NCBI GenBank assembly: GCA_002753515.1
Contig: PEAK01000041.1
Location: 1 to 40,356 of the forward strand
Direction of reading: 5' to 3'
DNA length: 40,356 bases
Source: Magnetococcales bacterium
GTDB taxonomy: Bacteria > Pseudomonadota > Magnetococcia > Magnetococcales > UBA8363
The notes beneath the pieces were generated by a model. The model was given only the letters and a program-made list of their open reading frames with translations. It was not told the DNA's origin and did not search any database. Numbering within the stretch: position 1 is the stretch's first letter; each line of letters starts with the position of its first letter. Of this stretch, positions 7,444-39,508 are shown in pieces. Made by a program: the position numbers and the translations under genes.

Positions 7444-7594
7444 TAAACCGCAACCAACACGGAAAACGTAGTTTTCCGGCGTCATTCCCGCGAAAGCGGG
7501 AATCCAGAAAGTCAGGGAGTGGTAGGAAAACTCCCAGGATCCCCGCTTTCGCGGGGATGACGATAACTACACATTCCAAGATAGCTACGGTTTA
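7444..7594. repeat. Family A MITE-like element, copy 1
   Basis: The 151-bp element begins TAAACCGCAACCA and ends TAGCTACGGTTTA, so the ends form a short imperfect inverted repeat (TAAACCG). Two facing core hairpins (GTCATTCCCGCGAAAGCGGG and GGATCCCCGCTTTCGCGGGG) lie inside. Other copies are at 13363, 33604 and 38159, with a half copy at 28707-28769. It lies 60 bp after the SPFH stop. The remaining gap to 7823 is AT-rich with no gene seen. Confidence 0.8.
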
Positions 7595-13365: not shown

Positions 13366-13511
13366 ACCGCAGCCAACGCGGGATACGTAGTTTTCCGGCG
13401 TCATTCCCGCGAAAGCGGGAATCCAGAAAGTCAGGGAAAGTAGGAAGGTTCTCTGGATCCCCGCTTTCGCGGGGATGACAATAACTGCACATTCCAGATA
13501 GCTACGGTTTA
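13363..13511. repeat. Family A MITE-like element, copy 2
   Basis: The 149-bp copy has ends TAAACCGCAGCCA and TAGCTACGGTTTA and the same two inner hairpins as copy 1. Its first three bases are the stop codon of the diguanylate cyclase gene, and it ends 54 bases before parE. The hairpins may act as a transcript end or boundary between the two genes. Confidence 0.8.
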
Positions 13512-21830: not shown

Positions 21831-23774
21831 CTAAGCGGTGGTATGACTGGTGGCCAAAAACGCCTTGGCTTCATCTTTACGCTCAAACACATGGGGTGCA
21901 ATGTTGCGTTCCGACAACGCCTGGTCCAGCTTCATCCGCATGAAGGCCGATGTCGCGTAGCGTGTGATCGTTGTGTAGTGGTGTTCCAACATGTACCGAT
22001 CCATCTCGGCATAATCGTCGTAGACGTTTTCGTTGATGCGGAACGAATCGTAGTTGATGAACACCCCCACCCGTTTGCCAATGGCCTGGCAATGTTTGAC
22101 CAGGAGTGTACGCAAGGCTTGGACATCTTCGCTGACCCGCATGTACAAACCTTCCAGGTTGATGAACAGAATGTTGCGCACGGCGTCGTAGCTGACGCGT
22201 TCGGGAAGGTCCAGATTGAGCAGATTGGCTTCCAGGTTCATCGGTTGCTCACGGAAGATACGGGGATCCATGGTAACCGGTTCGCGAATGATGGGGGTGA
22301 AATCCATGTGGGCCAGGATATCACGCTCGATATCGATACCTGGAGCCACTTCGGTCAAGACCAAGCCGCGGCGTCCGCGCCGGAAGACACAACGTTCGGT
22401 GACGAAATAGACCGGCTGCTTGCGTTCCACCGCATAATCGCCACTGAAGGTGACCTGTTTGACGGCCTTGACAAACTTGCGCGCCTTGCCTTCCTTGACG
22501 ATTCTGAGCTGACCGTTCTCAACGGCGATTTCCAGCCCTCCGGCGGTGAAGGTGCCGGTAAAGACCATGGAGCGTGCATTTTGACTGATGTTGATAAAGC
22601 CACCGCAACCGATGATGCGATCCCCGAAGCGGCTGACATTGACGTTACCCCGCTCGTCCACCTCCGCCAATCCCAGACAGGCCATGTCCAAACCGCCGCC
22701 GTCGTAGAAATCGAACATTTGATTCTGGTCGAGGACGCAGTCCACATTGACGCCGGCACCGAAACTGGGACCGCTGGAAAGCACGCCACCAATCGTACCG
22801 GCTTCGGAGGTCAGGGTGATGTATTTGGTGATTTTTTCCTCATTGGCTACCGCAGCCACCCCCTCGGGCACCCCCACCCCCAGATTGACGATACCGTTAG
22901 GGGGTAGTTCAAAAGCGCAGCGTCGGGCCATGATTTTACGTTCGTCCAGCTCCATGGGGGGGATATTGTCCACCGGGACGCGAATGCGACCCGCCAAAGC
23001 CGGATTGAAGATGGTTTCGCAATTCATCGCATGATTTTCGGGCTTGTCGGCGACGACGATACAGTCCACCAGGATACCCGGCACCCGAACCTCCCGGGAT
23101 TTCAACGAACCCATTTCGGCAATGCGTTCCACCTGGGCGATGACGATACCATTGCTGTTTTTGGCCGCCATGGCTTGCGCCAGGTTGTCCTGGAACAAGG
23201 CTTCCTTTTCCATGGTGATGTTACCCATGGGATCGGCGGTGGTACCGCGGATAATGGCCACGTCCACCTTGCCGACCTTGTAGAACAACCATTCTTCGCC
23301 GTCGATATCCACCAGCTTGACGATATCCTTGGTGGTGATATCGTTCACCTTGCCCCCTTCCAAACGTGGATCGACGAAGGTGTGCAAGCCAATCTTGGAG
23401 AAAAAGCCGGGCTTGCCCGATGCACGGGTGCGATACAGTTGGCAAATGACGCCCTGGGGCAGGTTGTAGGCGTAAATCTTGTTTTCTTTGGCCAGTTTGA
23501 CGATATTGGGCACCCGACCAAAGTTGCCGGAGACGAAACGCCGCAGCAATCCTTCATGTCCCAAGCGGTTGGTACCGCGATTCTTGCCGTCCGACTGTCC
23601 GGCAGCACCGATCAAGGTCAGATTTCTCGGCGAACCGGAGTTGACGAAACGCCGTTCCAAGGCTTCCAGAACGGTATCGGGATAGCCGGTTTGGACAAAC
23701 CCGTTGCAACAGATGGTATCCTGATCCTTGATCAAGGCGACGGCTTCGTCGGCGGATACGATTTTGCTGTACAT
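21831..23774 (-). CDS. Propionate/acetate CoA-transferase-like enzyme with C-terminal extension
   Basis: The 647-residue family I CoA-transferase has fused alpha- and beta-type halves (about 1-260 and 275-525). The catalytic glutamate is Glu324 in TLTSEAGTIGG, preceded by the oxyanion-region GVGVPEGVA. The layout matches propionate CoA-transferase/YdiF enzymes, which move CoA between acyl-CoAs and free carboxylates such as acetate or propionate. About 120 extra C-terminal residues (about 530-647) alternate strand and helix and resemble a small STAS-like domain (inference). The ATG at 23774 is chosen for its AGGAG. A 20-residue longer start has no such site. It sits between meh and mch, so it probably supplies propionyl-CoA or recycles CoA for the pathway. 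It is not part of the minimal pathway. Confidence 0.82.
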   Translation of the reverse strand: MYSKIVSADEAVALIKDQDTICCNGFVQTGYPDTVLEALERRFVNSGSPRNLTLIGAAGQSDGKNRGTNRLGHEGLLRRFVSGNFGRVPNIVKLAKENKIYAYNLPQGVICQLYRTRASGKPGFFSKIGLHTFVDPRLEGGKVNDITTKDIVKLVDIDGEEWLFYKVGKVDVAIIRGTTADPMGNITMEKEALFQDNLAQAMAAKNSNGIVIAQVERIAEMGSLKSREVRVPGILVDCIVVADKPENHAMNCETIFNPALAGRIRVPVDNIPPMELDERKIMARRCAFELPPNGIVNLGVGVPEGVAAVANEEKITKYITLTSEAGTIGGVLSSGPSFGAGVNVDCVLDQNQMFDFYDGGGLDMACLGLAEVDERGNVNVSRFGDRIIGCGGFINISQNARSMVFTGTFTAGGLEIAVENGQLRIVKEGKARKFVKAVKQVTFSGDYAVERKQPVYFVTERCVFRRGRRGLVLTEVAPGIDIERDILAHMDFTPIIREPVTMDPRIFREQPMNLEANLLNLDLPERVSYDAVRNILFINLEGLYMRVSEDVQALRTLLVKHCQAIGKRVGVFINYDSFRINENVYDDYAEMDRYMLEHHYTTITRYATSAFMRMKLDQALSERNIAPHVFERKDEAKAFLATSHTTA

Positions 23775-23811
23775 GAGATGACACTCCTGGGTAATGGACC
23801 GAGAGCCTTCC

Positions 23812-24663
23812 TCAGGCGAGTTCTGCCGAGGCATTCATGGTAATTTTCCCGTGGGGCCCGTGGGCTTCCAGTTCGACGACGTCGCCCTTGGGTCGGGCGA
23901 TCAAGCGAAACGGGTGCAGATCGAACAACGGTGCCCGTCCCTGAAACGAAAAACCCACCGCCCGCCTGCCGCTGTTGGCACGCGCCATTTCCAGGAGCAT
24001 CAAGGCCGTCAGTGGTCCATGCACCACGAGTCCGGGATAACCTTCTTCTTTCATGGCATAAGGCCGATCATAATGGATACGATGGGCGTTGAAGGTCAGG
24101 GCGGAAAACCGGAACAACAAAATGGTCGTGGGCGTCACATCCTTGACCCAAACACCGGGTCCTGGATCGGGATGGGCTGGAATCGGCACCGGGGCGGGGG
24201 TCGGCGGGCCGTCTTCCTTGTAGACGATATCCTGTTCCTCCTCGACACACAGCTCATTGTTCTGCCGGATACGGTATCTTGCCGTCACAAATACCAGATT
24301 ACCGCTTTTGCCCGATTTTTCCGACACGTTGAGAATTTCCCCTTCGCGCACCGCAGGCTGGCCGATGATCAAGGGGTGTAGAAACTTCATCCGGGCACCG
24401 GCGAACATGCGGCGTGGCAAGGTCACCGGCGGGAAAAAACCACCCCGCTTGGGATGTCCGTCGTGGTCGATACTCGACATCGGCGCCTTGGGGAGGAAAT
24501 GAAACCAATGCCACAAGGGGGGCAAAGGGTCACCAGCCTTGAAACGTTCCCCCTCCATGTCCAACATGGCGGCAACACAGTCGGCAACCACCGCGGAAAT
24601 GGTCTCCTCGCGAACCTCCTGGGATCCGATCCAATCAGTCAAAGGTTTGTTTTGTTCGCTCAT
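23812..24663 (-). CDS. meh: Mesaconyl-C4-CoA hydratase
   Basis: The 283-residue double hot-dog protein has an N-terminal FAS1-like dehydratase-type half (about 10-150). Its C-terminal half carries the hydratase-2 motif LTFNAHRIHYDRPYA, followed by EGYPGLVVHGPLTALML. This matches Meh of the 3-hydroxypropionate bi-cycle, which hydrates mesaconyl-C4-CoA to (S)-citramalyl-CoA. Eukaryotic HTD2-type dehydratases and itaconyl-CoA-type hydratases have the same fold, so sequence alone leaves some substrate doubt. Context between mct and the CoA-transferase makes Meh much the best choice. Its ATG shares one base with the mct stop (TAATG), indicating translational coupling. Confidence 0.87.
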   Translation of the reverse strand: MSEQNKPLTDWIGSQEVREETISAVVADCVAAMLDMEGERFKAGDPLPPLWHWFHFLPKAPMSSIDHDGHPKRGGFFPPVTLPRRMFAGARMKFLHPLIIGQPAVREGEILNVSEKSGKSGNLVFVTARYRIRQNNELCVEEEQDIVYKEDGPPTPAPVPIPAHPDPGPGVWVKDVTPTTILLFRFSALTFNAHRIHYDRPYAMKEEGYPGLVVHGPLTALMLLEMARANSGRRAVGFSFQGRAPLFDLHPFRLIARPKGDVVELEAHGPHGKITMNASAELA

Positions 24664-25901
24664 TATGAAATCTCCACTGGTCCGGCGACGATACCACTGT
24701 CGCGCAGGCTTTTGATTTCGTCCGCACTCAAACCCAGATCCTTACCCAAAATTTCATCGGTATGTTGACCGAGGATCGGGGCTGGTTTGGGGGGCTCCCG
24801 GGTATAAGCACCGAATTCGATGGGCGAACCCGGAACCAGGAAGGAACCGATACCGGGTTGTTCCAACATGGAAAACATGGGGTTTTTGGTGGACACACGC
24901 GCATCCTCCTCGACCATCTGCTTGAAGGTGCGATACGGTCCCCAGCAAACCCCGGTACCCTTGAAGATGGTTTCGATTTCCTGCAAGGTGCGTTGACCAC
25001 ACCATTGGCGAATGGGAACCGAGATTTCATCACTGGCCAGGAAACGGTCACCTTCCTTCTTGAAATTTTTCCCCAACCGGGTTTCAATTTCCTTGAAGGC
25101 ATCCGTCAAACCGGTCACCTTGCCCAACTCGGTCCACATGCGATCGGTCACCACGACGATATAAAGGCGGCGACCATCTTTGGTTTCATAATCGCTGCCA
25201 TAGGCACCATACAGATAGTTGCCATAGCCTTTGCGATCCTCATGATTGATCTGAACCTCGGAGACGTACCCCAGGTTGGCCGTCATGGCAAAGGCGATAT
25301 CGGAGAGGGCGATTTTCACCAATTGGCCCTCACCGGTCAGACGGCGATGGCGTTCGGCGGCCAATACCGCCAGTGCCAGGTTGATACCGGCAATGGCATC
25401 CCAGGCGGGCAGGACATGATTGATCGGCTTGGCATTGGGATTGGCGTGGTGATTACCAGTGACATGGGGGAAACCACACGCGCAATTGATGGTATAATCC
25501 ACCGCCGAAGTCCCATCGGAACTGCCCAGCAGGTTGACCATGATCAAATCGGGCCGATGTTTTTTCAAACTTTCGTAGCTCATCCACCCTTTGGCGGCGG
25601 GAAAGTTGGTCAAGAAAATACCATTGCCGGGGCCGGGAGCGGTAATCAGCTTCGTCAAAAGCTCCTGGGCCTGGGGTTTGCTCGAATCAATGGCCAAAGA
25701 ACGTTTACCCTTGTTCAATCCGACCCAGTAGAGGCTTTTGCCGTCTTTGGTAATGGGCCAACGCCGGGAATCCATCCCCCCGGTCAGGGGGTCGAAACGG
25801 ATGACATCCGCCCCCAATTGACTGAGGGTCATGCCACTCAACGGCGCGGCAACAAATGCTGAAGCCTCGATAATCCGCAATCCTTGCAACACTTTGAACA
25901 T
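24663..25901 (-). CDS. mct: Mesaconyl-CoA C1-C4 CoA transferase
   Basis: The 412-residue class III (CaiB/BaiF) CoA-transferase has the predicted catalytic aspartate Asp168 in LPAWDAIAG. In the bi-cycle Mct moves CoA intramolecularly from the C1 to the C4 carboxyl of mesaconate. Length (Chloroflexus Mct is about 408), the residues around the catalytic Asp and the immediate neighbours mcl and meh support this over formyl-CoA or carnitine transferases. Strong AAGGAG before the ATG; 33 bases after mcl, one-base overlap with meh. Mct has no other known role than this isomerisation, so it is the diagnostic gene of the cluster. Confidence 0.88.
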   Translation of the reverse strand: MFKVLQGLRIIEASAFVAAPLSGMTLSQLGADVIRFDPLTGGMDSRRWPITKDGKSLYWVGLNKGKRSLAIDSSKPQAQELLTKLITAPGPGNGIFLTNFPAAKGWMSYESLKKHRPDLIMVNLLGSSDGTSAVDYTINCACGFPHVTGNHHANPNAKPINHVLPAWDAIAGINLALAVLAAERHRRLTGEGQLVKIALSDIAFAMTANLGYVSEVQINHEDRKGYGNYLYGAYGSDYETKDGRRLYIVVVTDRMWTELGKVTGLTDAFKEIETRLGKNFKKEGDRFLASDEISVPIRQWCGQRTLQEIETIFKGTGVCWGPYRTFKQMVEEDARVSTKNPMFSMLEQPGIGSFLVPGSPIEFGAYTREPPKPAPILGQHTDEILGKDLGLSADEIKSLRDSGIVAGPVEIS

Positions 25902-25934
25902 ATTTCACTCCTTGGATTTCAGGATTGATCCGGA

Positions 25935-26984
25935 TTAAAAACCGTAGGCGGCAGCCCTCTCTGGATCCTTGGTGGCAACCAGCTTGGCCAGGTCCACGAT
26001 CACCTTGGCCTGTTTCCAGGTGGCATCATCCTGCATTTTGCCGTCGATCATCACCGCACCCGAACCATCCGGCATGGCTTCCAGGATCTTTTTGGCGAAC
26101 AAAACCTCTTTGACATCGGGGCTGAACACCCGTTTGGCAATGTCGATTTGCGTGGGGTGCAAGGTCCAGGCACCGGCACACCCTTGCAGGAAGGCGTTAC
26201 GGAATTGGGCTTCGCAAGCCGCCTCATCCTTGAAGTCGCCAAACGGGCCATAAAAGGCACGCAACCCATTGGTCAAACAGGCATCGACCATGCGGGCCAC
26301 GGTATAATGCCAAAGGTCTTGTTGGAAGAAGGCGCGTGCCGAACCATCGGCATTCGGGTCGGCCAAAACACCATAAAAGGGGTGTCCGCCACCGACGCGG
26401 GTGGTCTTCATGCCACGCGAAGCCGCCAAATCGGCGGGCCCCAGGCTCATGCCGTGCATCCTGGGGCTCGCCTGGGCGATGTCATTGACATTTTTCACCC
26501 CCTGCGCCGTCTCCAGGATGGCGTGGATCAAAATGGGCTTTTGCACATGGTGCTTGGCCTCCAGCAGCGCCAACAGTTGATCGACGAAATGAATGTCCCA
26601 CGCCCCTTCCACCTTGGGGATCATCACCACGTCCAATTTGTTGCCCACCGCGCCGATGATCTCGCTCATGTCGTCGAGGAACCAGGGGCTGTTGAGGGCA
26701 TTGACCCGGGTCCAAAGACCGGTACCCATGGCACGGAAATCAAAATTGTTCGCCACTTCAATGAATCCCCTGCGCGCCGCCTCTTTGGCTTCGATGGGAA
26801 TGGCATCTTCCAGGTTACCCAGCAGGACATCGACATTTTTCGCCATGTCACCCGCTTTGGCGCGCATCTTTTCGTTGTGGGGCGGGAGGAAATGGATGGT
26901 CCGCTCCAGGGTGATGGGCAGCTCACGCATGGGTTGGGGGGCGCCGATGGCGAGGGGCTTGTAAAATGCTGAGGGGGTCTTCAT
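25935..26984 (-). CDS. mcl: Malyl-CoA/beta-methylmalyl-CoA/(S)-citramalyl-CoA lyase
   Basis: The 349-residue CitE-fold lyase is strikingly like the trifunctional Chloroflexus MCL, judged from memory (same length; shared [10 protein letters not shown] start, [17 protein letters not shown]...[14 protein letters not shown] and the ending KDP-x-x-A-x-A-YG-x). Catalytic and Mg2+-binding residues are in place: Arg93 (RVNALNSPW), Glu158 (ILETAQG) and Asp185 (LGPADLAAS). In the bi-cycle it condenses glyoxylate with propionyl-CoA to beta-methylmalyl-CoA and later cleaves (S)-citramalyl-CoA to acetyl-CoA and pyruvate, opening and closing the route encoded here. It has AGGAGAG before the ATG. High similarity to a Chloroflexi enzyme suggests horizontal transfer (inference). 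Confidence 0.9.
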
Positions 26985-27062
26985 GGATTCTCTCTCCTAA
27001 AGGTCATTCCCGGACTCAAGATATACGTCGGGGGATCATGGATTATGTTATGGTTATACTGT

Positions 27063-28046
27063 TCAGGCCTTCTTGGCAGCCGCCAATTCCGCCTTTCGGA
27101 CAACGGCTTCCGCCTGACGGATGGAAGCGATATCAATCATTTTGCCATCCAGGCTGACCGCCGCCGCCCCTTGCTTTTCCGCCTGTTCCATGGCCGCGAG
27201 GATGCGCCGTGCCTGTTCCATCTCTTTTTCCGATGGTTTGAACAAATCGTTGGCCATCTCCACCTGACTGGGATGGATGACCATTTTGCCTTCGAATCCC
27301 AGTGTTTTGGCCCGTTTGGCCGCCGCCATCCAACCATCGGGATCCTTGATGTCGGCAAAGGGACCGTCCACGGGACGCAAACCATTGGCCCGTGCCGCTG
27401 CGACAATGCGGGCATGCGGATAATGCCACATATCCTGCCAATGGGATGAACGGTGCCCCTGGGCATCGGCGGAGCCGAGGATGTGATAGTCGGGATTGGG
27501 ACCACCGATCATGGTGATTTGCATGTTGGTAGCCGCTGCGTAGTCGGCGGAACCGAACAAGATGGTTTCATTCCTGGGGGAGGCGGCGGCAATGCTGTCG
27601 ATATTTTGCATCCCCAGGGGCGTTTCAATCAGCATTTCAATGCCGATTCTTTTCTGGATCCCCTTGGCCCGTTCGATCTGGGTCAAGAGCATGTCCACGG
27701 CGTAGATATCGGCGGCGCATCCCACCTTGGGCACCAGGATCAGATCCAGTTTATGCCCCGCTTGCTCCACCAGATCCACGACATCGCGATACATGTAGTG
27801 GGTATCCAGACCGTTGATCCTGACCGACAGGCTCTTGCCACCAAAATTCAAATCATTGAGGGCGGCAATCACATCTTTGCGCGCCTGCTCCTTGTTATCC
27901 GGTGGAACCGAATCCTCCAAATCGAAGAAAATGACATCGGCCTGACTGCTGGCCGCCTTTTCGATGAAGCGTGGATTGGACCCGGGCACCGCCAGGGTAC
28001 TGCGGTTCAAACGTTGTCGGCGCTGGGGTATGGTCATAAAACTCAT
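27063..28046 (-). CDS. mcl1: Second CoA-ester lyase, Rhodobacter Mcl1-type malyl-CoA/beta-methylmalyl-CoA lyase
   Basis: The 327-residue CitE-like lyase resembles Rhodobacter sphaeroides Mcl1 more than the neighbouring lyase: FDLEDSVPPD, SVRINGLDT, PKVGCAADIYAVD, then a C-terminal VHPSQVEMANDLF and DIASIRQAEAVVRKAE. Expected active-site residues are Arg76, Glu141 and Asp168. Known enzymes cleave (S)-malyl-CoA and beta-methylmalyl-CoA to glyoxylate plus acetyl- or propionyl-CoA. The start at 28046 is chosen over an ATG six codons upstream because GGAGGAG lies nine bases before it. It is first in the operon, so the cell may use it to generate or consume glyoxylate while the other lyase handles citramalyl-CoA (inference). 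Confidence 0.87.
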   Translation of the reverse strand: MSFMTIPQRRQRLNRSTLAVPGSNPRFIEKAASSQADVIFFDLEDSVPPDNKEQARKDVIAALNDLNFGGKSLSVRINGLDTHYMYRDVVDLVEQAGHKLDLILVPKVGCAADIYAVDMLLTQIERAKGIQKRIGIEMLIETPLGMQNIDSIAAASPRNETILFGSADYAAATNMQITMIGGPNPDYHILGSADAQGHRSSHWQDMWHYPHARIVAAARANGLRPVDGPFADIKDPDGWMAAAKRAKTLGFEGKMVIHPSQVEMANDLFKPSEKEMEQARRILAAMEQAEKQGAAAVSLDGKMIDIASIRQAEAVVRKAELAAAKKA

Positions 28047-28198
28047 CTTAGCGTTCTCCTCCATCCTGGTTGCGCTGTGATGCCTTTGATTTCATGTGTT
28101 GATAGAATCACATTTCGCGCCAGATTGGACGCTTTCATTTATTTTGTTATATATCTATACTTTGACATTGAATCAGCCGGACTTCCCTTCCCTTGAAA

Positions 28199-28672: not shown

Positions 28673-28769
28673 TCTTGATCATCGTTTCGGCCGTGCCAAC
28701 TCATTCTGGATTCCCGCTTTCGCGGGAATGACACTGGAAAACTACGTTTCCCGTGTTGGTTGCGGTTTA
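28673..28769. repeat. Chimeric element: family B left end joined to family A end
   Basis: It starts with the family B terminus (CTTGATCATCGTTTCGGCC, then CCAACTCATTCTGGATTCCC). After one core hairpin it switches to the family A terminus read in reverse (GTTGGTTGCGGTTTA at the end). The switch point is inside the shared hairpin, suggesting recombination or template switching between families. It ends four bases from the stop of the minus-strand gene at 28774. Confidence 0.6.
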
Positions 28770-29980: not shown

Positions 29981-31333
29981 ATGAAACGCGCTTTACTTCT
30001 TTTCCTGGCCCTGGCCTTGATACCCGTCACAGCCTGGGCCGAACCCGCCGCAGCGGCCGCAGGAGGGCCGTCCTTGTTCGGTATCCCACTGGATTTCATA
30101 CTTTTCGCCCTGGTTTTGTTGGGCGTGGCCCTGTTCAGCGAAAACACGCTGCAAGTGGGCCTGATCGGGGCAACGACCATCGTCCTTTACAAAGTCTTTT
30201 TCGCCGGCTTCAAGTACGGCACGGGCTTGGCGGGATTGGGACTGCACTTTCAACATGAATGGGTCACTTTGGCGAATCTGTTCTGCCTGCTCATGGGCTT
30301 CGCCTTGTTGTCCAATCATTTTGAACAAAGCAAGGTTCCCGACATCCTGCCCCGTTTCATCCCCGGGGGGTGGATGGGCGGTTTCGTCCTGTTGTTCATG
30401 GTGTTCGTCCTCTCCAGCTTCCTGGATAATATCGCTGCGGCGTTGATCGGTGGCGCCGTTGCCAGGACGGTGTTTCGCGGCAAAGTGCATATCGGCTATC
30501 TGGCCGCCATCGTCGCCGCTTCCAACGCGGGGGGGTCGGGAAGCGTGGTCGGTGACACCACCACCACCATGATGTGGATCGCCGGAATCAGCCCCAGTGC
30601 CGTGTTCCACGCCTATGCCGGTGCGTTGATCGCCCTGTTCATCTGCGGTATCCCCGCCGCCATGCAGCAGGATAAATATTCCGCCATCAGCGTCTCCCAT
30701 GGCGAATCCGTCAAAGTTGATGTCGCCCGGGTCGGCCTGGTCGCATTCATCCTCGTCGTGGCTGTCGTCGTCAACATGGTGGTCAACCTGAAATTCAACG
30801 AAATTTCCGATACCTTCCCGTTCATCGGCGTTGGCGTCTGGGCCGCCATCATCGTCTCCATTCCGGTGCGCAAACCCGAATGGGGCATCATGCCGGAAAC
30901 CTTCAAAGGGAGTATTTTCCTCCTTTCGTTGGTTTTGTGCGCCTCCCTGATGCCCGTGGAAAAACTTCCCACCGCTTCCTGGCCGGTGGCCATGGGACTG
31001 GGTTACGTCTCCGCCGTCTTCGACAATATCCCACTGACCGCCCTGGCCATCAAACAAGGGGGGTACGACTGGGGGGCGCTGGCCTATTCCGTGGGTTTCG
31101 GCGGCTCGATGATCTGGTTCGGCTCCTCAGCGGGCGTCGCCTTGACCAACATGTTCCCCGAAGCCAAATCGGTCGGTAAATGGGTCAAGGACGGCTATCA
31201 CGTGACGATCGCCTACACCATCGGATTTTTCGTTCTCTTGGCCCTCGTGGGTTGGCACCCGTCCTCAGACCGGTACCATACCGATGCACCGACGGTACAA
31301 ACCCAGACAACAACACCGGCTCCCGGTCATTGA
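29981..31333 (+). CDS. nhaD: NhaD-type Na+/H+ antiporter-like protein, cassette copy 1
   Basis: The 450-residue polytopic membrane protein of the ion-transporter superfamily has about 12 hydrophobic segments and a cleavable-looking signal peptide (1-20, ending AWA). Two related inverted halves are visible: SSFLDNIAAALIGG (from 145) with SNAGGSGSVVGDTTTT (181-196), and VFDNIPLTALAIK with GSSAGVALTN later. Known NhaD proteins exchange Na+ (or Li+) for H+. Citrate- or arsenite-type transporters share the fold, so the substrate is inferred. It is followed by OadG- and OadB-like genes, suggesting a Na+ circuit. Copy 2 at 34170 is roughly 90% identical by eye. The start has AAGG nine bases upstream. 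Confidence 0.85.
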   Translation: MKRALLLFLALALIPVTAWAEPAAAAAGGPSLFGIPLDFILFALVLLGVALFSENTLQVGLIGATTIVLYKVFFAGFKYGTGLAGLGLHFQHEWVTLANLFCLLMGFALLSNHFEQSKVPDILPRFIPGGWMGGFVLLFMVFVLSSFLDNIAAALIGGAVARTVFRGKVHIGYLAAIVAASNAGGSGSVVGDTTTTMMWIAGISPSAVFHAYAGALIALFICGIPAAMQQDKYSAISVSHGESVKVDVARVGLVAFILVVAVVVNMVVNLKFNEISDTFPFIGVGVWAAIIVSIPVRKPEWGIMPETFKGSIFLLSLVLCASLMPVEKLPTASWPVAMGLGYVSAVFDNIPLTALAIKQGGYDWGALAYSVGFGGSMIWFGSSAGVALTNMFPEAKSVGKWVKDGYHVTIAYTIGFFVLLALVGWHPSSDRYHTDAPTVQTQTTTPAPGH

Positions 31334-31447
31334 ACCCCGGGGTCGCAACGTCCATGGCCGCTTACATGAATCCAACCCCGACCTCTCGGGAAACGGGGCC
31401 ATGCGGGAAATCAGGTTTCATTTCAATGCAAGGCAAGGGAGTCCACT

Positions 31448-31573
31448 ATGTTGCACCAGGTGATCATGAAATCTTTATACGCGTATCTCTTGTTGATGGT
31501 CATCTCCTTCTTCGTAGCCGTTGTCATCAAGGTCATCGTTTCCATGTTTGATCGAGCGGCGGAGAAGAAATGA
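31448..31573 (+). CDS. OadG-like microprotein, 41 residues (membrane anchor only)
   Basis: The product corresponds residue for residue to the first 40 residues of the full OadG-like protein encoded at 31684, then stops: MLHQVIMKSLYAYLLL, a single membrane segment (about 11-34) and FDRAAEKK. The ribosome-binding site is strong (AAGGGAG, six bases before ATG). Against the full copy, about 24 of 40 codons differ silently and only three change the residue. That is the mark of selection on the protein rather than a fresh broken duplicate. It lacks the C-terminal region that in OadG contacts the catalytic subunit. It could be an extra assembly or anchor peptide for the pump. No counterpart exists in the second cassette. 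Confidence 0.75.
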   Translation: MLHQVIMKSLYAYLLLMVISFFVAVVIKVIVSMFDRAAEKK

Positions 31574-31683
31574 CACCGCAAACGGGAATGTGGGGCATTG
31601 TACCTTGTGGAAACAGCCCGGCTTGATCGGATCGCCACAGCGGCATGCCAAAAAGGTTATGATTATTTAGTGAAGGAGTTCCA

Positions 31684-32031
31684 ATGCTGCATCAAGTCAT
31701 CATGAAATCGCTGTATGCCTACTTACTGTTGGCCATCATTTCATTTTTCGTAGCCGTTGTCATCAAAATCATCGTCAGCATGTTCGACCGCGCCGCTGAA
31801 AAAAATGAATCGTCGCCCGGGGGCGGCGTTCAGGCCGCTTTCACTCCGGCGTCATCCCCGGTGTCCGCCAATATCAGAGGAATACCCGCCCACCACTTGG
31901 TAGCCATTATTTCAGCGGCGCAAATGGTCGCTGGCGGGCGCATCGTCAGAATCGACGAGGCCGACGAAAACAGGAGCTGGACCACAATCGGTCGTTCGCA
32001 ACACTTGGCGTCCCACGACATCCGCCGATGA
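31684..32031 (+). CDS. oadG: OadG-like gamma/delta subunit of a Na+-pumping decarboxylase, copy 1
   Basis: The 115-residue protein has an N-terminal membrane segment (about 11-34), a Pro/Ala/Ser-rich linker (about 40-65) and a C-terminal cytoplasmic part. That part has the family pattern HHLVAIISAAQMVAGGRIVRI and ends SWTTIGRSQHLASHDIRR (compare the W..aGR...H..SH ending of OadG/MmdD proteins). In known enzymes this subunit anchors the carboxyltransferase/biotin part to the beta subunit. It has AAGGAG before the ATG. It lies between nhaD and oadB copy 1. The soluble alpha subunit is not encoded nearby. Confidence 0.85.
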   Translation: MLHQVIMKSLYAYLLLAIISFFVAVVIKIIVSMFDRAAEKNESSPGGGVQAAFTPASSPVSANIRGIPAHHLVAIISAAQMVAGGRIVRIDEADENRSWTTIGRSQHLASHDIRR

Positions 32032-32075
32032 GCTGCCATCCCGTGGGCGGAATGGATGTCATAACTGAGCCAATC

Positions 32076-32120
32076 TGATCGTGTCGTATAACGTTACATC
32101 GTGTACCAGGAGGAGTTGCA
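32076..32120 (+). promoter_or_regulatory. Conserved 45-base leader of oadB copy 1
   Basis: This stretch is base-for-base identical to 36200-36244, the leader of the second oadB, although neighbouring genes differ at many silent positions. It holds direct repeats ATCGTGT at 32078-32084 and 32098-32104 (20-base period), a TAACGTTA palindrome between them, and the AGGAGGAG ribosome-binding site of the GTG start. A shared operator or translational control element is the likely reason for the conservation. Confidence 0.6.
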
Positions 32121-33362
32121 GTGGATATTAACATGTTGGATCTGTTTCAAGGCATCAGTACGCTGGTGTCCTCATTCCACACCCAGCCGGAGATCGCCTG
32201 GGCCCGTATTTTTCTCATGGGCCTCGGTTGTGTGTTGATTTATCTGGGGCACAAAGGGGTATTGGAACCCCTGTTGATGGTGCCCATGGGGTTGGGCATG
32301 TCGGCGGTGAATGCCGGCGTGATGTTCGTCCCACCCTCGATGAATCTGCCCCAACAGGGGGACAAAGGGACCCTGTTCCTCAATCCATTGATTTCCGAGG
32401 GTGAAAAGCTGACCTATATACTCCAGGTCGATTTTTTACAGCCCATTTACATCTTCACCTTCTCCAACGGTTTGATCGCCTGCTTGGTGTTCATGGGGAT
32501 CGGTTCCTTGCTGGATGTCGGCTATGTGATGCGGCGCCCGTTTGAAAGCATGTTCCTGGCCGTTTGTGCCGAATTGGGAACCATCGTCGTCTACCCGCTG
32601 GGGGTTGCCATCGGCCTGCCCGAGGGGGCCGCAGCCGCCACCTCGACCATCGGTGGGGCGGACGGTCCCATGGTGTTGTTCTCCTCCCTCATGTTGGCCC
32701 CGGATATTTTCGTCCCCATTACAGTTGTTGCCTACCTCTACCTGGGCCTGACTTATGGAGGCTATCCCTATCTGATCAAATTGCTGGTGCCGAAGAGCAT
32801 TCGTGGTATACCCATGCCCATTGAACCCCCTTCCAGAATCTCCCCCGGGCAAAAGATGGTGTTCGCCATCATCACCTGCGTTCTGTTGTGCCTGTTGTTC
32901 CCGGTGGCCGCACCCCTGTTCCTTTCGGTGTTCCTGGGAGTGCTGGTGCGTGAAGCGGGGCTCAAGGATTTTCATACCCTGTTTTCCAATACCGTGCTGT
33001 ACGGTGCCACCTTTTTCCTGGGGCTGGTTCTGGGGATTTTGTGTGAAGCGGCCACCATCATGAACCCGGTCGTGTTTCGCTTGCTGGTCCTCGGTGTAAC
33101 GGCGTTGACCATCTCGGCCATCGGTGGCATCATCGGCGGTTACATCCTTTATTTCTACTATGGCAAGAAATACAACCCCCTGATCGGTTTGGCCGGGGTT
33201 AGCTGCGTCCCCACCTGTGCCAAGGTGGCGCAAAAAAGCGCCAATGAGGCCAATCCGGAGTGTATGATTCTGCCCCAGTCCCTGGGATCCAATGTCAGCG
33301 GCGTGATCACCACCGCCATCCTCGCCGCCATTCTCATCGCCATGGTGGGACCCGTCAAATAA
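32121..33362 (+). CDS. oadB: OadB-like beta subunit of a Na+-translocating decarboxylase, 413-residue type, copy 1
   Basis: The 413-residue integral membrane protein has about ten membrane segments and the key GGADGP motif (Asp181), which in Klebsiella OadB includes the Na+/H+-handling aspartate. It is longer than classical beta subunits (about 375-385): an insert at about 66-105 is present. The C-terminal HAMGPN-type motif reads LPQSLGSN, with CVPTCAKVAQKSAN before it. The start is GTG with AGGAGGAG upstream. Known relatives drive Na+ export from decarboxylation of oxaloacetate, malonate or methylmalonyl-CoA. Which acid is used here cannot be told without the alpha subunit. It is followed by a strong terminator. 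Confidence 0.87.
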   Translation: MDINMLDLFQGISTLVSSFHTQPEIAWARIFLMGLGCVLIYLGHKGVLEPLLMVPMGLGMSAVNAGVMFVPPSMNLPQQGDKGTLFLNPLISEGEKLTYILQVDFLQPIYIFTFSNGLIACLVFMGIGSLLDVGYVMRRPFESMFLAVCAELGTIVVYPLGVAIGLPEGAAAATSTIGGADGPMVLFSSLMLAPDIFVPITVVAYLYLGLTYGGYPYLIKLLVPKSIRGIPMPIEPPSRISPGQKMVFAIITCVLLCLLFPVAAPLFLSVFLGVLVREAGLKDFHTLFSNTVLYGATFFLGLVLGILCEAATIMNPVVFRLLVLGVTALTISAIGGIIGGYILYFYYGKKYNPLIGLAGVSCVPTCAKVAQKSANEANPECMILPQSLGSNVSGVITTAILAAILIAMVGPVK

Positions 33363-33407
33363 TCCTCGATTCAATTCCTCGAATCACCCGTCATCGGGTG
33401 TTCAATC

Positions 33408-33438
33408 AAGGCCGCTCTCACAGCGGCCTTTTTTTTTA
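33408..33438 (+). terminator. Intrinsic terminator after cassette 1
   Basis: The perfect 9-bp stem AAGGCCGCT/AGCGGCCTT has a five-base loop and is followed by a run of T. It starts 46 bases after the oadB copy 1 stop. Confidence 0.92.
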
Positions 33439-33603
33439 TGGCGCTTCCCAACGCCCATGTGATCGCCTCCGGGTCAAAGATCCTTTCCACATCACTATTT
33501 TGCCAATCGTCGGCTTCAAAGGATTTTCCGCAGAATCGTCCCCGGGGACGCGGCAATCCAGGGGCTACGAACCCTGGACTACAAATTTTCATTGATAGAT
33601 ATA

Positions 33604-33753
33604 TAAACCGCAACCATCGCGGGATATGTAGTTTTCCTGCGTCATTCCCGCGAAAGCGGGAATCCAGAAAGTCAGGGAAGGTAGGAAGATCTTCTGGATC
33701 CCCGCTTTCGCGGGGATGACAAAAACTACGCATCCCAAAATAGCTGCGGTTTA
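33604..33753. repeat. Family A MITE-like element, copy 3
   Basis: The 150-bp copy begins TAAACCGCAACCATCGCGGG and ends TAGCTGCGGTTTA, with both inner hairpins intact. It separates the two NhaD-OadG-OadB cassettes. The preceding 33439-33603 holds no gene. Confidence 0.8.
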
Positions 33754-34169
33754 GATTGTTAATTTTATAGTAAATTTTTCATAAAGTTTGTCTTTTATAT
33801 ATATTTTCATTATAAAACAATATATTAAAAAATAGGGCCTGGATGTTATCGATACCTTTCTGGACCGCCCCTGAGTCGGGATAGGAACTCAATCCAGGCG
33901 TTCATAATATTTTTATTATTTTTTTTCAATATTTTATATGAATTCTTCAGAAGGGATCCCCATGACGGTGCATTGATGATGAGGCAAACTTACTGTACAG
34001 TGCGCGCAAAATACTGGATGTCCAGAAGGGGAATTTTTTATCTGTTATTAATTTTGTATTAAGATGTTTATGTTTCCAATATGTGTGGCGTCTATCCGGT
34101 ATAGTGCCATTATTCAATTGAGATTCAACATGTTGTCGTTATTTTTCCTCTCAACCAAGGTAGCTTGAC
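33754..34169. other. AT-rich leader of cassette 2 with a stem-loop
   Basis: No gene is seen. A GC island in AT-rich DNA (33837-33899) is closed by the 8-bp stem GCCTGGAT/ATCCAGGC with a 47-base inner region and a T-rich tract after it. It could be a small structured RNA or a terminator-like element. The final 20 bases equal the leader of the first nhaD. Confidence 0.4.
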
Positions 34170-35522
34170 ATGAAACGTGCTTTTCTTCTTTTCCTGGCTT
34201 TGGCCTTAATGCCCGTTACAGCCTGGGCTGAACCCACCGCCGCGGTCGCTGCGGGACCGTCCCTACTCGGTATCCCCCTGGATTTCATCCTTTTCGCCCT
34301 GGTTTTGTTGGGTGTGGCCCTGTTCAGCGAAAACACGCTGCAAGTGGGCCTGATCGGGGCAACGACCATCGTCCTTTACAAAGTATTTTTCGCTGGTTTC
34401 AAATACGGCACGGGCTTGACGGGTTTGGGACTGCACTTTCAACATGAATGGGTCACCTTGGCCAATCTGTTTTGCCTGCTCATGGGCTTCGCCCTTCTCT
34501 CCAATCATTTCGAACACAGCAAAGTCCCCGATGTTCTGCCCCGCTTCATCCCCGGGGGGTGGAAGGGCGGCTTCGTCCTATTATGCATGGTCTTCGTACT
34601 TTCCAGCTTTCTGGATAACATCGCCGCCGCTTTGATTGGCGGTGCCATTGCCAGAACGGTGTTTCGCGGCAAGGTGCATATCGGTTATCTCGCCGGCATC
34701 GTCGCCGCCTCCAACGCGGGAGGATCGGGAAGCGTGGTCGGGGACACCACCACCACCATGATGTGGATCGCGGGCATCAGCCCCGCTGCGGTGTTGCATG
34801 CCTATGCCGGTGCGTTGATCGCCCTGTTCATTTGCGGCATCCCCGCCGCCATACAACAGGATAAATATTCCCCCATCAGCGTTCCCCATGGCGAAGTTGT
34901 CAAAGTCGATGTCGTTCGCATCGCCCTGGTCGCCTTCATCCTGGTGGTGGCAATCCTGGTCAATATGGTGGTCAACCTGAAATTCAACGAAATTTCCGAT
35001 ACCTTCCCCTTTATTGGCGTCGGCGTTTGGGCAGCCTTGCTGGTCTCCATCCCCCTGCGCCAACCCGAGTGGAAAATCATGCCGGAAACCTTCAAGGGGA
35101 GTATCTTCCTCCTCTCCCTGGTATTGTGCGCCTCCCTGATGCCCGTGGAAAAATTACCCCCCGCTTCCTGGCCGGTTGCCATGGGATTGGGCTACGTCTC
35201 CGCCGTGTTCGACAACATCCCACTCACCGCCCTGGCCATCAAACAAGGGGGCTACGACTGGGGGGCATTGGCCTACTCCGTGGGTTTCGGCGGCTCGATG
35301 ATCTGGTTCGGTTCCTCGGCGGGCGTCGCCCTGACCAATATGTTCCCCGAAGCCAAATCGGTCGGCAAATGGGTCAAGGACGGCTATCATGTGACAATCG
35401 CCTACACCATCGGTTTCTTCGTCCTCCTGTCCCTGGCGGGTTGGCACCCTTCCTCAGACCGGTACCATACCGGTACCCCATCGGTGCAAACCCCTATGTC
35501 CACGCCATCCCAAAACCACTGA
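34170..35522 (+). CDS. nhaD: NhaD-type Na+/H+ antiporter-like protein, cassette copy 2
   Basis: The 450-residue paralogue of the gene at 29981 has the same length, signal peptide (1-20) and core motifs (SSFLDNIAAALIGG, SNAGGSGSVVGDTTTT, VFDNIPLTALAIK). It differs mostly by silent or conservative changes. Several loop residues differ (for example GGWKGG for GGWMGG), and the periplasmic N-terminus and the C-terminal tail vary most. Both copies look functional. Differences in transport kinetics or regulation are possible but not visible. It is followed after 264 bases by the second oadG, with no extra OadG microprotein in this copy. Confidence 0.85.
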   Translation: MKRAFLLFLALALMPVTAWAEPTAAVAAGPSLLGIPLDFILFALVLLGVALFSENTLQVGLIGATTIVLYKVFFAGFKYGTGLTGLGLHFQHEWVTLANLFCLLMGFALLSNHFEHSKVPDVLPRFIPGGWKGGFVLLCMVFVLSSFLDNIAAALIGGAIARTVFRGKVHIGYLAGIVAASNAGGSGSVVGDTTTTMMWIAGISPAAVLHAYAGALIALFICGIPAAIQQDKYSPISVPHGEVVKVDVVRIALVAFILVVAILVNMVVNLKFNEISDTFPFIGVGVWAALLVSIPLRQPEWKIMPETFKGSIFLLSLVLCASLMPVEKLPPASWPVAMGLGYVSAVFDNIPLTALAIKQGGYDWGALAYSVGFGGSMIWFGSSAGVALTNMFPEAKSVGKWVKDGYHVTIAYTIGFFVLLSLAGWHPSSDRYHTGTPSVQTPMSTPSQNH

Positions 35523-35786
35523 CCGTGTCGGGTAGGGGTAGAGAGGGGGGAGCCTTTTTTTCCGGATGGATTCATGATGAAATATTAATACCATACAGTT
35601 GAAATGAGAGAGGCGATAAGGTCTATATTGATGCTTTCAATTGACTTATTTGGTCAATACGGGTAGAAAGTTTCCGTAAAGTTCAAAATCGGATGCCAGG
35701 TACCGTCTGGAGGGGTGGCGGATAGCCTCGATTGGTCAAGACGTTGTGATGCCCGAAAGGGAAAGCCATTTCGTAAAGGAGTTCCA

Positions 35787-36140
35787 ATGCTTCATCAAGT
35801 TATCATGAAATCGTTGTATGCATATCTGTTGCTGGCGATCATCGCCTTTTTCGTAGCAGTGGTGATCAAGGTCATCGTAAGCCTTTTCAACCGCGCTGCC
35901 GAAAAAACTGAGGTATCGCCCAAAGCATCCGCTCAGGTCGCCACCTCCGTGAAACCGCCACCAGCGTCCACCGTCATCAAAGGCCTACCCGCCCACCATC
36001 TGGTCGCCATCACCGCCGCCGCACAGATGGTCGCCGGAGGCCGTGTCGTCCGCATCGACGAAGCCGAAGAAATCAAAAATAAGAATTGGACCACGATCGG
36101 TCGTTCACAGCATTTGGCATCCCACGACATTCGCCGTTGA
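35787..36140 (+). CDS. oadG: OadG-like gamma/delta subunit, copy 2
   Basis: The 117-residue paralogue of the 31684 gene has a membrane anchor (about 11-34), a variable Pro/Ser/Val linker (about 42-66), then HHLVAITAAAQMVAGGRVVRI and the ending WTTIGRSQHLASHDIRR. The anchor and the C-terminal block are strongly conserved between copies while the linker is not, as expected if both ends make specific contacts. The ATG at 35787 is set by AAAGGAG. A longer in-frame start at 35715 lacks such a site. It lies in the same order as in cassette 1. Confidence 0.85.
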   Translation: MLHQVIMKSLYAYLLLAIIAFFVAVVIKVIVSLFNRAAEKTEVSPKASAQVATSVKPPPASTVIKGLPAHHLVAITAAAQMVAGGRVVRIDEAEEIKNKNWTTIGRSQHLASHDIRR

Positions 36141-36199
36141 TCCATCAGGATTCCGTAATCAGCAAACGGCGTCCGCGAATCCCCGGATGGGCGCTGCAT

Positions 36200-36244
36200 T
36201 GATCGTGTCGTATAACGTTACATCGTGTACCAGGAGGAGTTGCA
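36200..36244 (+). promoter_or_regulatory. Conserved 45-base leader of oadB copy 2
   Basis: Identical to 32076-32120, with ATCGTGT direct repeats at 36202-36208 and 36222-36228, the TAACGTTA palindrome and AGGAGGAG before the GTG start. Confidence 0.6.
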
Positions 36245-37486
36245 GTGGATATTAACCCGTTGGACCTGTTTCAAGGCATCAGTACGTTGGTCTCCTCGTT
36301 TCACACCCAGCCGGAAATCGCCTGGGCCCGTCTTTTTCTCATGGGCTTGGGTTGCGTTCTGATCTATTTGGGTCACAAAGGGGTGTTGGAACCCCTGTTG
36401 ATGGTGCCCATGGGATTGGGTATGTCGGCGGTGAATGCTGGCGTCATGTTCGTCCCACCCTCGATGAATCTGCCCCAGCAGGGTGATAAGGGGACCCTGT
36501 TCCTCAACCCGTTGATTTCCGAAGGTGAAAAGCTGACCTATATACTCCAGGTGGACTTTTTACAGCCCATTTACATCTTCACTTTCTCCAACGGTTTGAT
36601 CGCCTGTCTGGTATTCATGGGGATTGGTTCCTTGCTGGATGTCGGTTATGTGATGCGACGCCCGTTCGAGAGCATGTTTCTCGCCGTTTGCGCCGAGCTG
36701 GGCACCATCGTCGTCTTTCCACTGGGGGTTGCCATCGGTCTGCCCGAAGGGGCCGCAGCCGCCACCTCGACCATCGGTGGTGCCGATGGTCCCATGGTGC
36801 TGTTCTCTTCCCTCATGCTGGCCCCGGATATCTTTGTCCCCATCACGGTCGTGGCCTACCTTTACCTGGGGCTGACCTATGGTGGCTATCCTTATCTGAT
36901 CAAGCTGCTGGTACCGGCCAGTATCCGTGGCATACCCATGCCCATTGAAAAACCTTCCAATATTACCCCCGGCCAAAAGATGGTGTTCGCCATCATCACC
37001 TGCATCCTGTTGTGCCTGTTGTTCCCGGTGGCCGCCCCCCTGTTCCTTTCGGTGTTCCTGGGAGTTCTGGTGCGTGAGGCGGGACTCAAAGATTTTCACA
37101 ATCTTTTTTCCAATACCGTTCTGTACGGTGCCACTTTTTTCCTGGGGCTGATCCTGGGCATTCTGTGTGAAGCGGCCACCATCATGAACCCGGTCGTTTT
37201 CCGCTTGTTGATTCTCGGCATCACGGCGCTGACCATCTCAGCCATCGGCGGCATTATCGGTGGGTACATACTCTATTTTTACTATGGGAAAAAATACAAT
37301 CCCCTGATTGGTTTGGCCGGTGTCAGTTGTGTTCCGACCTGTGCCAAGGTGGCGCAAAAAAGTGCCAATTCGGCCAACCCGGAATGCATGATCCTGCCCC
37401 AAGCCTTGGGTTCCAATGTCAGTGGGGTCATCACCAGTGCCATCCTGGCTGCAACGCTCATCGCCATGGTTGGACCCGTTAAATAA
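36245..37486 (+). CDS. oadB: OadB-like beta subunit, 413-residue type, copy 2
   Basis: The 413-residue paralogue of the 32121 gene is about 95% identical by eye. It has a GTG start, the same GGADGP core (Asp181) and the same variant C-terminal motif (LPQALGSN). Changes cluster in one cytoplasmic loop (PASIRGIPMPIEKPSNITPG against PKSIRGIPMPIEPPSRISPG). It should form a Na+-conducting membrane subunit together with OadG. The carboxyltransferase must come from elsewhere in the genome. It is closed by its own terminator at 37534. Confidence 0.87.
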   Translation: MDINPLDLFQGISTLVSSFHTQPEIAWARLFLMGLGCVLIYLGHKGVLEPLLMVPMGLGMSAVNAGVMFVPPSMNLPQQGDKGTLFLNPLISEGEKLTYILQVDFLQPIYIFTFSNGLIACLVFMGIGSLLDVGYVMRRPFESMFLAVCAELGTIVVFPLGVAIGLPEGAAAATSTIGGADGPMVLFSSLMLAPDIFVPITVVAYLYLGLTYGGYPYLIKLLVPASIRGIPMPIEKPSNITPGQKMVFAIITCILLCLLFPVAAPLFLSVFLGVLVREAGLKDFHNLFSNTVLYGATFFLGLILGILCEAATIMNPVVFRLLILGITALTISAIGGIIGGYILYFYYGKKYNPLIGLAGVSCVPTCAKVAQKSANSANPECMILPQALGSNVSGVITSAILAATLIAMVGPVK

Positions 37487-37893: not shown

Positions 37894-38055
37894 ATGGTTC
37901 CTGATACAGTTACCGGGGCACTCATCCTGAGCTTTATCGATTTTATATTAAGCTTCTTCATGATCGCTGGAATCGGCATCGTCCTGGCCTGGTTCCCGAT
38001 CCTCAACCGTTATTTCAAGGTTGATGAAGCCAAACTGCGGAAAGGACACCCCTGA
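37894..38055 (+). CDS. Small single-span membrane protein, 53 residues
   Basis: The protein starts MVPDTVTGALILSFIDF. It has one long hydrophobic stretch (about residues 8-37, with a polar Asp16 inside) and a basic C-terminal tail (VDEAKLRKGHP). The ribosome-binding site is excellent (TTAAGGAGGAAATA before ATG). It precedes the third oadB by 304 bases, at the place where an OadG-like gene would be expected. It may therefore be a minimal anchor subunit for that pump (inference). No similarity to the two OadG copies is visible. Confidence 0.65.
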   Translation: MVPDTVTGALILSFIDFILSFFMIAGIGIVLAWFPILNRYFKVDEAKLRKGHP

Positions 38056-38158
38056 TAGAGCGATTCAGGAAACCGGGTTTACTGGTTGGAGCTGCAAGAA
38101 GGGGAGGTGTCAAGCCTGTAAACCTCTTAACAACGCGGCATGTGACGGCATGAACCGT

Positions 38159-38335
38159 TAAACCGCAACCATCGCGGGATATGTAGTTTTCCTGCGTCAT
38201 TCCCGCCCCCGATTCAGGCATTCGGGGGCAGGCTTCAGCGGGAATCCAGAAAGTCAGGGAAGGTAGGAAAATCCTCTGGATCCCCGCTTTCGCGGGGATG
38301 ACAATAACTGCATATTCCAAGATAGCTGCGGTTTA
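38159..38335. repeat. Family A MITE-like element, copy 4, enlarged
   Basis: The 177-bp copy has family A ends. About 28 extra bases sit in the tip of its first hairpin (38208-38240), forming a second nested hairpin GCCCCCGA/TCGGGGGC. It lies between the 53-residue membrane protein gene and oadB copy 3. The rest of 38056-38158 holds no gene. Confidence 0.75.
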
Positions 38336-38359: not shown

Positions 38360-39508
38360 ATGACGGCTGATTTAAGTTTCATCGACATGACCAATACATT
38401 TTTCCTGGCCATGTACAAGCAGACGGGCTTTGAAAGTTTATGGTGGGGCAACACGGTCATGATGGGGGTGGGATGCATCTTGATCTACCTGGGAGTCGCC
38501 AAGCACTTTGAACCATTGCTGCTGGTCTCCATCGGTTTCGCCTGCGTCATCGCCAATGTCCCTGGATCCGACCTGATCTCGGAAAATGGTCTGTTCACCC
38601 TGGCCCACCGGGGCCTGGAGCTGTTGATCGTGCCACCGCTGATCTTTTTTGGTGTCGGTGCCATGACCGACTTCGGTCCCATGATCGCCAATCCCAAACT
38701 GGTCATATTGGGGGCGGCGGCCCATTTGGGTATTTTTGTCGCCCTCATTATCGCCAAAATGATCGGCTTCACCATCCAGGAGGCGGGAGCCATCGGCATC
38801 ATCGGTGGTGCCGATGGTCCCATGGCCATCTTCGTCACCATGAAACTGGCCCCCCATCTGTTGCCACAAATCTCGGTGGCCGCCTATTCCTACATGGCTT
38901 TGATGCCGCTCATCCAACCCCCGGTCATGAAACTCCTCACCACGAAGGAGGAACGTTTGATTCGCATGGAAACCATGCGTCCGGTGACCCGGTTGGAAAA
39001 AATCGTCTTCCCCATCGTCATCGGTATCATCGTCAACCTGTTCTTCCCACCCGTCGCACCGCTGATCACCATGCTCATGCTCGGCAACCTGTTCAAAGAA
39101 GTCCTCGTCGTCGGTCGCTTGGCCAAGTCGGCAGCCAACGAAATCATGAACGTCATCATCGTCGTCTTGACCCTGGCCATCGGTTCCACCATGAACGCCG
39201 ACTCCTTCCTGACCATCAAAACGTTGGAAATCATCTTCCTGGGGCTATTGGCTTTCGTCGTCGGAACCGGATCCGGGGTGGTGGGTGCCAAGGTGATGAA
39301 CCTGTTCTTGAAGGTTAAAATCAACCCTCTCCTGGGATCGGCGGGTATTGCCTCGGTTCCCATCGCCGCCAAGGTTACCCATTCCGTGGCCATCAAAGAT
39401 GACCCGGAAAATTACCTGATCTATCACGCCATGGGACCCAACCTGGCAGGGGTGTTCGGTACCGCGATCTCTGGGGGTATCATGCTGGCTTTGTTGGGGG
39501 TGCGCTGA
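38360..39508 (+). CDS. oadB: OadB/MmdB/GcdB-type beta subunit of a Na+-translocating decarboxylase
   Basis: The 382-residue membrane protein is of classical beta-subunit length and motifs: GIIGGADGPMAIF (Asp152), an N-terminal IYLGVAKHFEPLLL, SVPIAAKVTHSVA near the end and HAMGPNLAGVFGTAISGG. It differs clearly from the two 413-residue copies, which lack HAMGPN and carry an insert, so it belongs to another branch and probably serves another decarboxylase. Ribosome-binding site AAAGGTGATAAA. The upstream neighbour is a 53-residue membrane protein rather than OadG. Substrate acid unknown; the alpha and biotin subunits are not in the window. Confidence 0.9.
   Translation: MTADLSFIDMTNTFFLAMYKQTGFESLWWGNTVMMGVGCILIYLGVAKHFEPLLLVSIGFACVIANVPGSDLISENGLFTLAHRGLELLIVPPLIFFGVGAMTDFGPMIANPKLVILGAAAHLGIFVALIIAKMIGFTIQEAGAIGIIGGADGPMAIFVTMKLAPHLLPQISVAAYSYMALMPLIQPPVMKLLTTKEERLIRMETMRPVTRLEKIVFPIVIGIIVNLFFPPVAPLITMLMLGNLFKEVLVVGRLAKSAANEIMNVIIVVLTLAIGSTMNADSFLTIKTLEIIFLGLLAFVVGTGSGVVGAKVMNLFLKVKINPLLGSAGIASVPIAAKVTHSVAIKDDPENYLIYHAMGPNLAGVFGTAISGGIMLALLGVR

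Follow-up and report, generated by a model that had tools for sequence, protein, structure and literature searches.

An intact 41-residue paralogue of the MmdD-type anchor helix in a duplicated sodium-pump locus of a Magnetococcales bacterium

Introduction

In the methylmalonyl-CoA decarboxylase of Veillonella, the short subunit MmdE derives from part of MmdD and resembles the C-terminal part of this protein; no open-access papers describing MmdE were found. Anchor subunits of this family associate with the beta subunit through their N-terminal helix and with the carboxyltransferase through their C-terminal region, and a 4A:2B:2D assembly has been proposed for the glutaconyl-CoA enzyme (PMC7145394). 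Here, we analyze a micro-ORF from a Magnetococcales MAG that corresponds to the other end of such an anchor, i.e. its N-terminal helix. ORFs this short fall below the usual annotation length.

Results

Organization of the locus

The window, i.e. the whole stretch of DNA that was analyzed, is 40,356 nucleotides long (assembly GCA_002753515.1, contig PEAK01000041.1). The locus consists of two cassettes (29981-33362 and 34170-37486), each carrying an NhaD-like antiporter, an anchor and a beta subunit, followed by a third beta subunit:

29981..31333, + strand: NhaD-like antiporter, copy 1 (TIGR00775, 64 bits, below its cut-off)
31430..31447, + strand: Shine-Dalgarno (SD) region of the micro-ORF, GCAAGGGAGTCCACT, with predicted anti-SD pairing, kept in the sister species
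31448..31573, + strand: micro-ORF, 41 aa, MLHQVIMKSLYAYLLLMVISFFVAVVIKVIVSMFDRAAEKK, ATG start and TGA stop, paralogue of the N-terminal anchor helix of an MmdD/OadG-like subunit
31574..31683, + strand: spacer between the micro-ORF and full-length copy 1, without convincing remnant of the missing C-terminal part
31684..32031, + strand: full-length MmdD/OadG-like anchor subunit, copy 1, 115 aa (predicted helix 2-42, linker, C-terminal tail)
32121..33362, + strand: beta subunit copy 1, carboxybiotin decarboxylase / Na+ pump, MadB/MmdB-like (PF03977, 340 bits; TIGR03136, 489 bits, below cut-off)
34170..35522, + strand: NhaD-like antiporter, copy 2, 91% identical to copy 1
35787..36140, + strand: full-length MmdD/OadG-like subunit, copy 2, 117 aa, second full-length paralogue
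36245..37486, + strand: beta subunit copy 2, 96% identical to copy 1
37894-38055: protein of 53 aa with a single helix, MVPDTVTGALILSFIDFILSFFMIAGIGIVLAWFPILNRYFKVDEAKLRKGHP, encoded shortly before the third beta subunit and preceded by a very strong SD
38360-39508: third beta subunit, which passes the NCBIfam general Na+-pump beta model

The beta subunits match PF03977, and the first is nearest to the malonate-decarboxylase type of NCBIfam, below cut-off. At the micro-ORF locus, the beta subunit adjoins the anchor, whereas the carboxyltransferase and the biotin carrier are located on a separate contig, C87, which groups an mmdA-like carboxyltransferase gene (TIGR01117, 755 bits, below cut-off), a divergent anchor matching neither PF04277 (OAD_gamma) nor any NCBIfam model, and the biotin carrier. 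In this mmdA-mmdD-mmdC group (L056:3821-6311), the beta subunit is not directly downstream, whereas congeners have mmdADCB-type operons; the N-terminal helix of its MmdD also differs.

The tandem cassettes (29981-37486) diverge unevenly, with a dS of about 0.5-0.6 for NhaD and beta and a much higher one for the anchor, perhaps because gene conversion acted on the large genes and spared the anchor. Two interspersed elements that contain inverted repeats and are each about 150-175 bases long (33604-33751 and 38158-38332) resemble small MITE-like mobile elements that entered the locus after the species split, the sister species being empty at both spots; related copies are found at 7444-7591, at 13363-13508 and partly near 28704-28769. 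Beside the pump locus, the minus strand (21831-28064) encodes a CoA-transferase, a 2-methylfumaryl-CoA isomerase-like protein (TIGR04253, below cut-off) and two CitE/malyl-CoA lyase-like proteins, a set reminiscent of the 3-hydroxypropionate bicycle.

The micro-ORF and its full-length neighbor

The sequence-only reading had described a 41-residue ORF copying the first 40 residues of the adjacent gene, with about 24 silent codon differences and three altered residues. Our comparison with full-length copy 1 confirmed this description: 27 of the 40 codons differ, 24 of them silently, the differences at codon positions 1/2/3 amount to 8/2/22, and the three residue differences are A17M, I18V and I29V, the two helices being 93% identical. 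Since the match to the neighboring gene has an E value of 7e-17, the micro-ORF is not a chance ORF. It matches no Pfam (including PF04277) or NCBIfam model, its 19-residue hydropathy maximum is 2.84, and, ending at residue 41, it carries neither the linker nor the C-terminal carboxyltransferase-binding segment. The ribosome-binding site, which had been called strong, is real, with a predicted anti-SD pairing of -9.1 kcal/mol (-8.3 for the full-length gene and -7.9 for the micro-ORF of the sister species). However, 6% of all ATGs in the window have an equal or better pairing, so that this site is on par with those of its neighbors and not exceptional.

The neighbor had been named OadG. It appears to be an anchor subunit of that family, but the name is imprecise: full-length copy 1 has no match in Pfam, PF04277 included, or in NCBIfam, and in congeners lacking the NhaD cassette the anchor homologue is flanked by mmdA and mmdC within an mmdADCB-type operon (carboxyltransferase, anchor, biotin carrier, beta). 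Because of this synteny, the protein is better called an MmdD-type subunit. Its predicted structure comprises one confident element, a helix spanning residues 2-42 (pLDDT 84-96 up to residue 40), beyond which come a disordered linker and helices of low confidence; a profile search for distant PDB relatives gave nothing credible. According to this model, the micro-ORF is predicted to be exactly the complete anchor helix, without the tail.

Concerning its origin, the TGA stop of the micro-ORF aligns with an out-of-frame T|GA of codons NNT GAA/GAG that is shared by all four full-length copies, which suggests that the micro-ORF arose by frameshift. Local alignment of the spacer (31574..31683) with the C-terminal parts gave a best nucleotide p of about 0.1, and one of the six frames reached p=0.01, uncorrected. 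Trees built on 40 codons do not settle the position of the micro-ORF among the copies, and only its grouping with full-length copy 2 was rejected (AU p=0.018). Leader homology was compared to tell a tandem partial duplication from the deletion of a full copy: the leader of the micro-ORF matches copy 1 weakly (p=0.02), as it does the single G003 cassette (p 0 to 0.013, 300 shuffles), and this result is not decisive. Programmed frameshifting in full-length copy 1, where an A7 precedes a -1 frame TGA and would yield nearly the same product, was also considered and was set aside, since the sister species does not retain the A run.

Distribution among relatives

Eight genomes of the host genus were compared, the relatives being Magnetococcales MAGs. 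Decay of the frame in close relatives, which the sequence-only reading had put forward as counter-evidence, was looked for and is absent in nWRX3bin12 (G001, JADGCN010000016.1), the only other genome with the duplicated locus. There, the micro-ORF (L035:8645-8770) has an intact frame, the same length, the same stop and 93% protein identity. G003 has a single NhaD-anchor-beta cassette without the micro-ORF, and no NhaD-like gene was found in the five remaining congeners in the stretches examined around the anchor gene. No further short-form copy was found among 48 genomes of the order. Hence, frame conservation rests on one informative relative.

The 53-aa gene located before the third beta subunit is kept with this subunit in G001 (98%), G003 (90%) and G030 (68%), being thus conserved in four genomes from two families. 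Its product has no credible Pfam or NCBIfam match. Between the host and the sister species, it shows 10 base differences and one residue change, a pattern that does not differ significantly from that of the micro-ORF (Fisher p=0.16). This gene is a better-supported microprotein than the micro-ORF. Like the latter, it is small, has one predicted hydrophobic helix and a strong SD, and lies just upstream of a beta gene; unlike it, it has a different sequence, is found in four genomes and two families, and is not a fragment of a neighboring full-length gene. Its position before the third beta subunit, together with its conservation, makes small helix-only partners of beta plausible in these bacteria.

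Divergence of the micro-ORF since the species split

The two micro-ORFs differ at 7 of 126 bases (5.6%), including 3 silent and 4 replacement changes distributed as 2/2/3 over codon positions. The replacements are Q4T (two bases), S32A and R36Q, and Q4T hits a residue that is invariant in 9/9 aligned full-length homologues. The dN/dS across related loci, suggested earlier as a check, could be computed with one relative: it is 0.33, not different from 1 (Fisher p=0.16), and constraint is seen only against external yardsticks. The dN of the micro-ORF (0.042) is no different from the values of the full-length copies over the same 40 residues (0.033 and 0.050).

The flanking spacers differ at 35 of 223 bases (15.7%), and the micro-ORF diverges less, whether taken as a whole (Fisher p=0.006) or for its replacement sites alone (p=0.003). 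Synonymous sites of the adjacent genes also diverge more than the micro-ORF. The three spacer pieces next to it are at 17.7%, 9.0% and 20.9%, the 67 bases that follow the stop being at 9% and the next 43 at 21%. Constraint is favored over neutrality by a Bayes factor of 23 when genic synonymous windows serve as reference, of 55 against the pooled flanks, and of 1.5 against the 67 post-stop bases only. Since synonymous divergence within the locus ranges from 0.05 to 0.54 between windows, there is room for a locally slow patch. In neutral simulations, the frame survives intact in 2-22% of cases, depending on divergence and indel rate, and an intact frame combined with no more than three residue changes has a probability that does not exceed 0.09 at 5% divergence and stays under 0.01 from 9% upward.

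Discussion

Constraint and alternative explanations

The ratio of 24 silent to three replacement differences had been presented as an argument against a dead fragment. The ratio does not support this argument, since it compares paralogues and cannot tell selection on the short ORF from selection on a full-length ancestor truncated later. The two micro-ORFs share a long stem in the nucleotide tree as well as in the codon tree (about 24 silent and few residue changes), so that the ratio predates the species split; it cannot date the truncation because it may have built up while the copy was full length. The comparison of host and sister species bears on the short form because the changes that it counts date from after the truncation. 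This case illustrates that selection on a truncated copy cannot be deduced from a high silent-to-replacement ratio between paralogues alone.

What then stands of the proposal that the micro-ORF is kept by selection is its intact frame in the sister species, a divergence lower than that of the flanking spacers and an end that coincides with the predicted end of the anchor helix, but four of the seven changes are replacements and there is no third-position excess. A neutral relic would account for the latter facts: not long before the species split, a deletion or frameshift would have removed the C-terminal part of an extra full-length MmdD copy in this tandem-duplicated locus, rich in paralogues, the silent excess dating from the life of this copy as a full gene and the frame looking intact because little time has passed. 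The changes flat across codon positions are in agreement with this scenario, as are the location of the TGA, which a one-base shift in an A-rich tract would give, and the simulated neutral survival of the frame, which is not very rare. However, a relic is not expected to diverge less than both adjacent spacers and the synonymous sites of adjacent genes, nor to combine an intact frame with so few residue changes, and no C-terminal remnant is convincingly detectable downstream. We consider this scenario a serious possibility, although of less than even probability. The low divergence of the 67 bases beyond the stop would instead fit a cis-acting element or leader ORF, extending from the SD to the end of these bases and controlling the full-length gene located just downstream by translational coupling or as a leader peptide, the peptide itself being irrelevant. 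A leader would not need the invariant residues of the family, no terminator-like site was found on this strand between NhaD and the full-length gene, and an RNA element was rejected for lack of any Rfam match and of a stable fold, the spacer folding less stably than shuffles (z=+1.85). Such control by the region therefore seems improbable. On balance, the divergence data favor purifying constraint on the micro-ORF over its absence, and the micro-ORF is probably still used.

A tail-less anchor as the preferred explanation

Judging from its sequence, the micro-ORF is a partial paralogue of a putative MmdD-type anchor of a biotin-dependent Na+-translocating decarboxylase. We give roughly even chances to the hypothesis that it is a constrained, tail-less anchor that occupies the site of the beta subunit. 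Most likely, its own ribosome-binding site would drive its translation and purifying selection would maintain it, and the short helix would take the anchor site of the downstream beta subunit. Given the topology of the family, with the helix facing beta and the tail facing the carboxyltransferase, a tail-less helix is expected to fill the beta site without carboxyltransferase. If beta is, as proposed, a dimer with two anchors, the short helix could either stabilize beta or fill one anchor position without recruiting the carboxyltransferase, and may thereby tune the number of alpha subunits per pump. If it works in this way, the partial duplication of a pump subunit to give a helix-only partner would be a simple route to an altered stoichiometry of a membrane complex.

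A more elaborate version, which we regard as speculative and rather unlikely, is a two-anchor Na+ pump in which full-length anchors tether the carboxyltransferase while a dedicated tail-less anchor fills beta sites, the ratio of the two setting coupling or assembly.

Comparison with known anchor systems

The micro-ORF is the reverse of MmdE from Veillonella: the latter corresponds to the C-terminal part of MmdD, whereas the micro-ORF keeps the N-terminal helix instead. Compared with the MmdD, OadG and GcdD anchor subunits, which have an Ala/Pro-rich linker and a C-terminal carboxyltransferase-binding segment (PMC7145394), the micro-ORF is without both but shares with them the predicted single N-terminal helix and a gene location adjoining the beta subunit.
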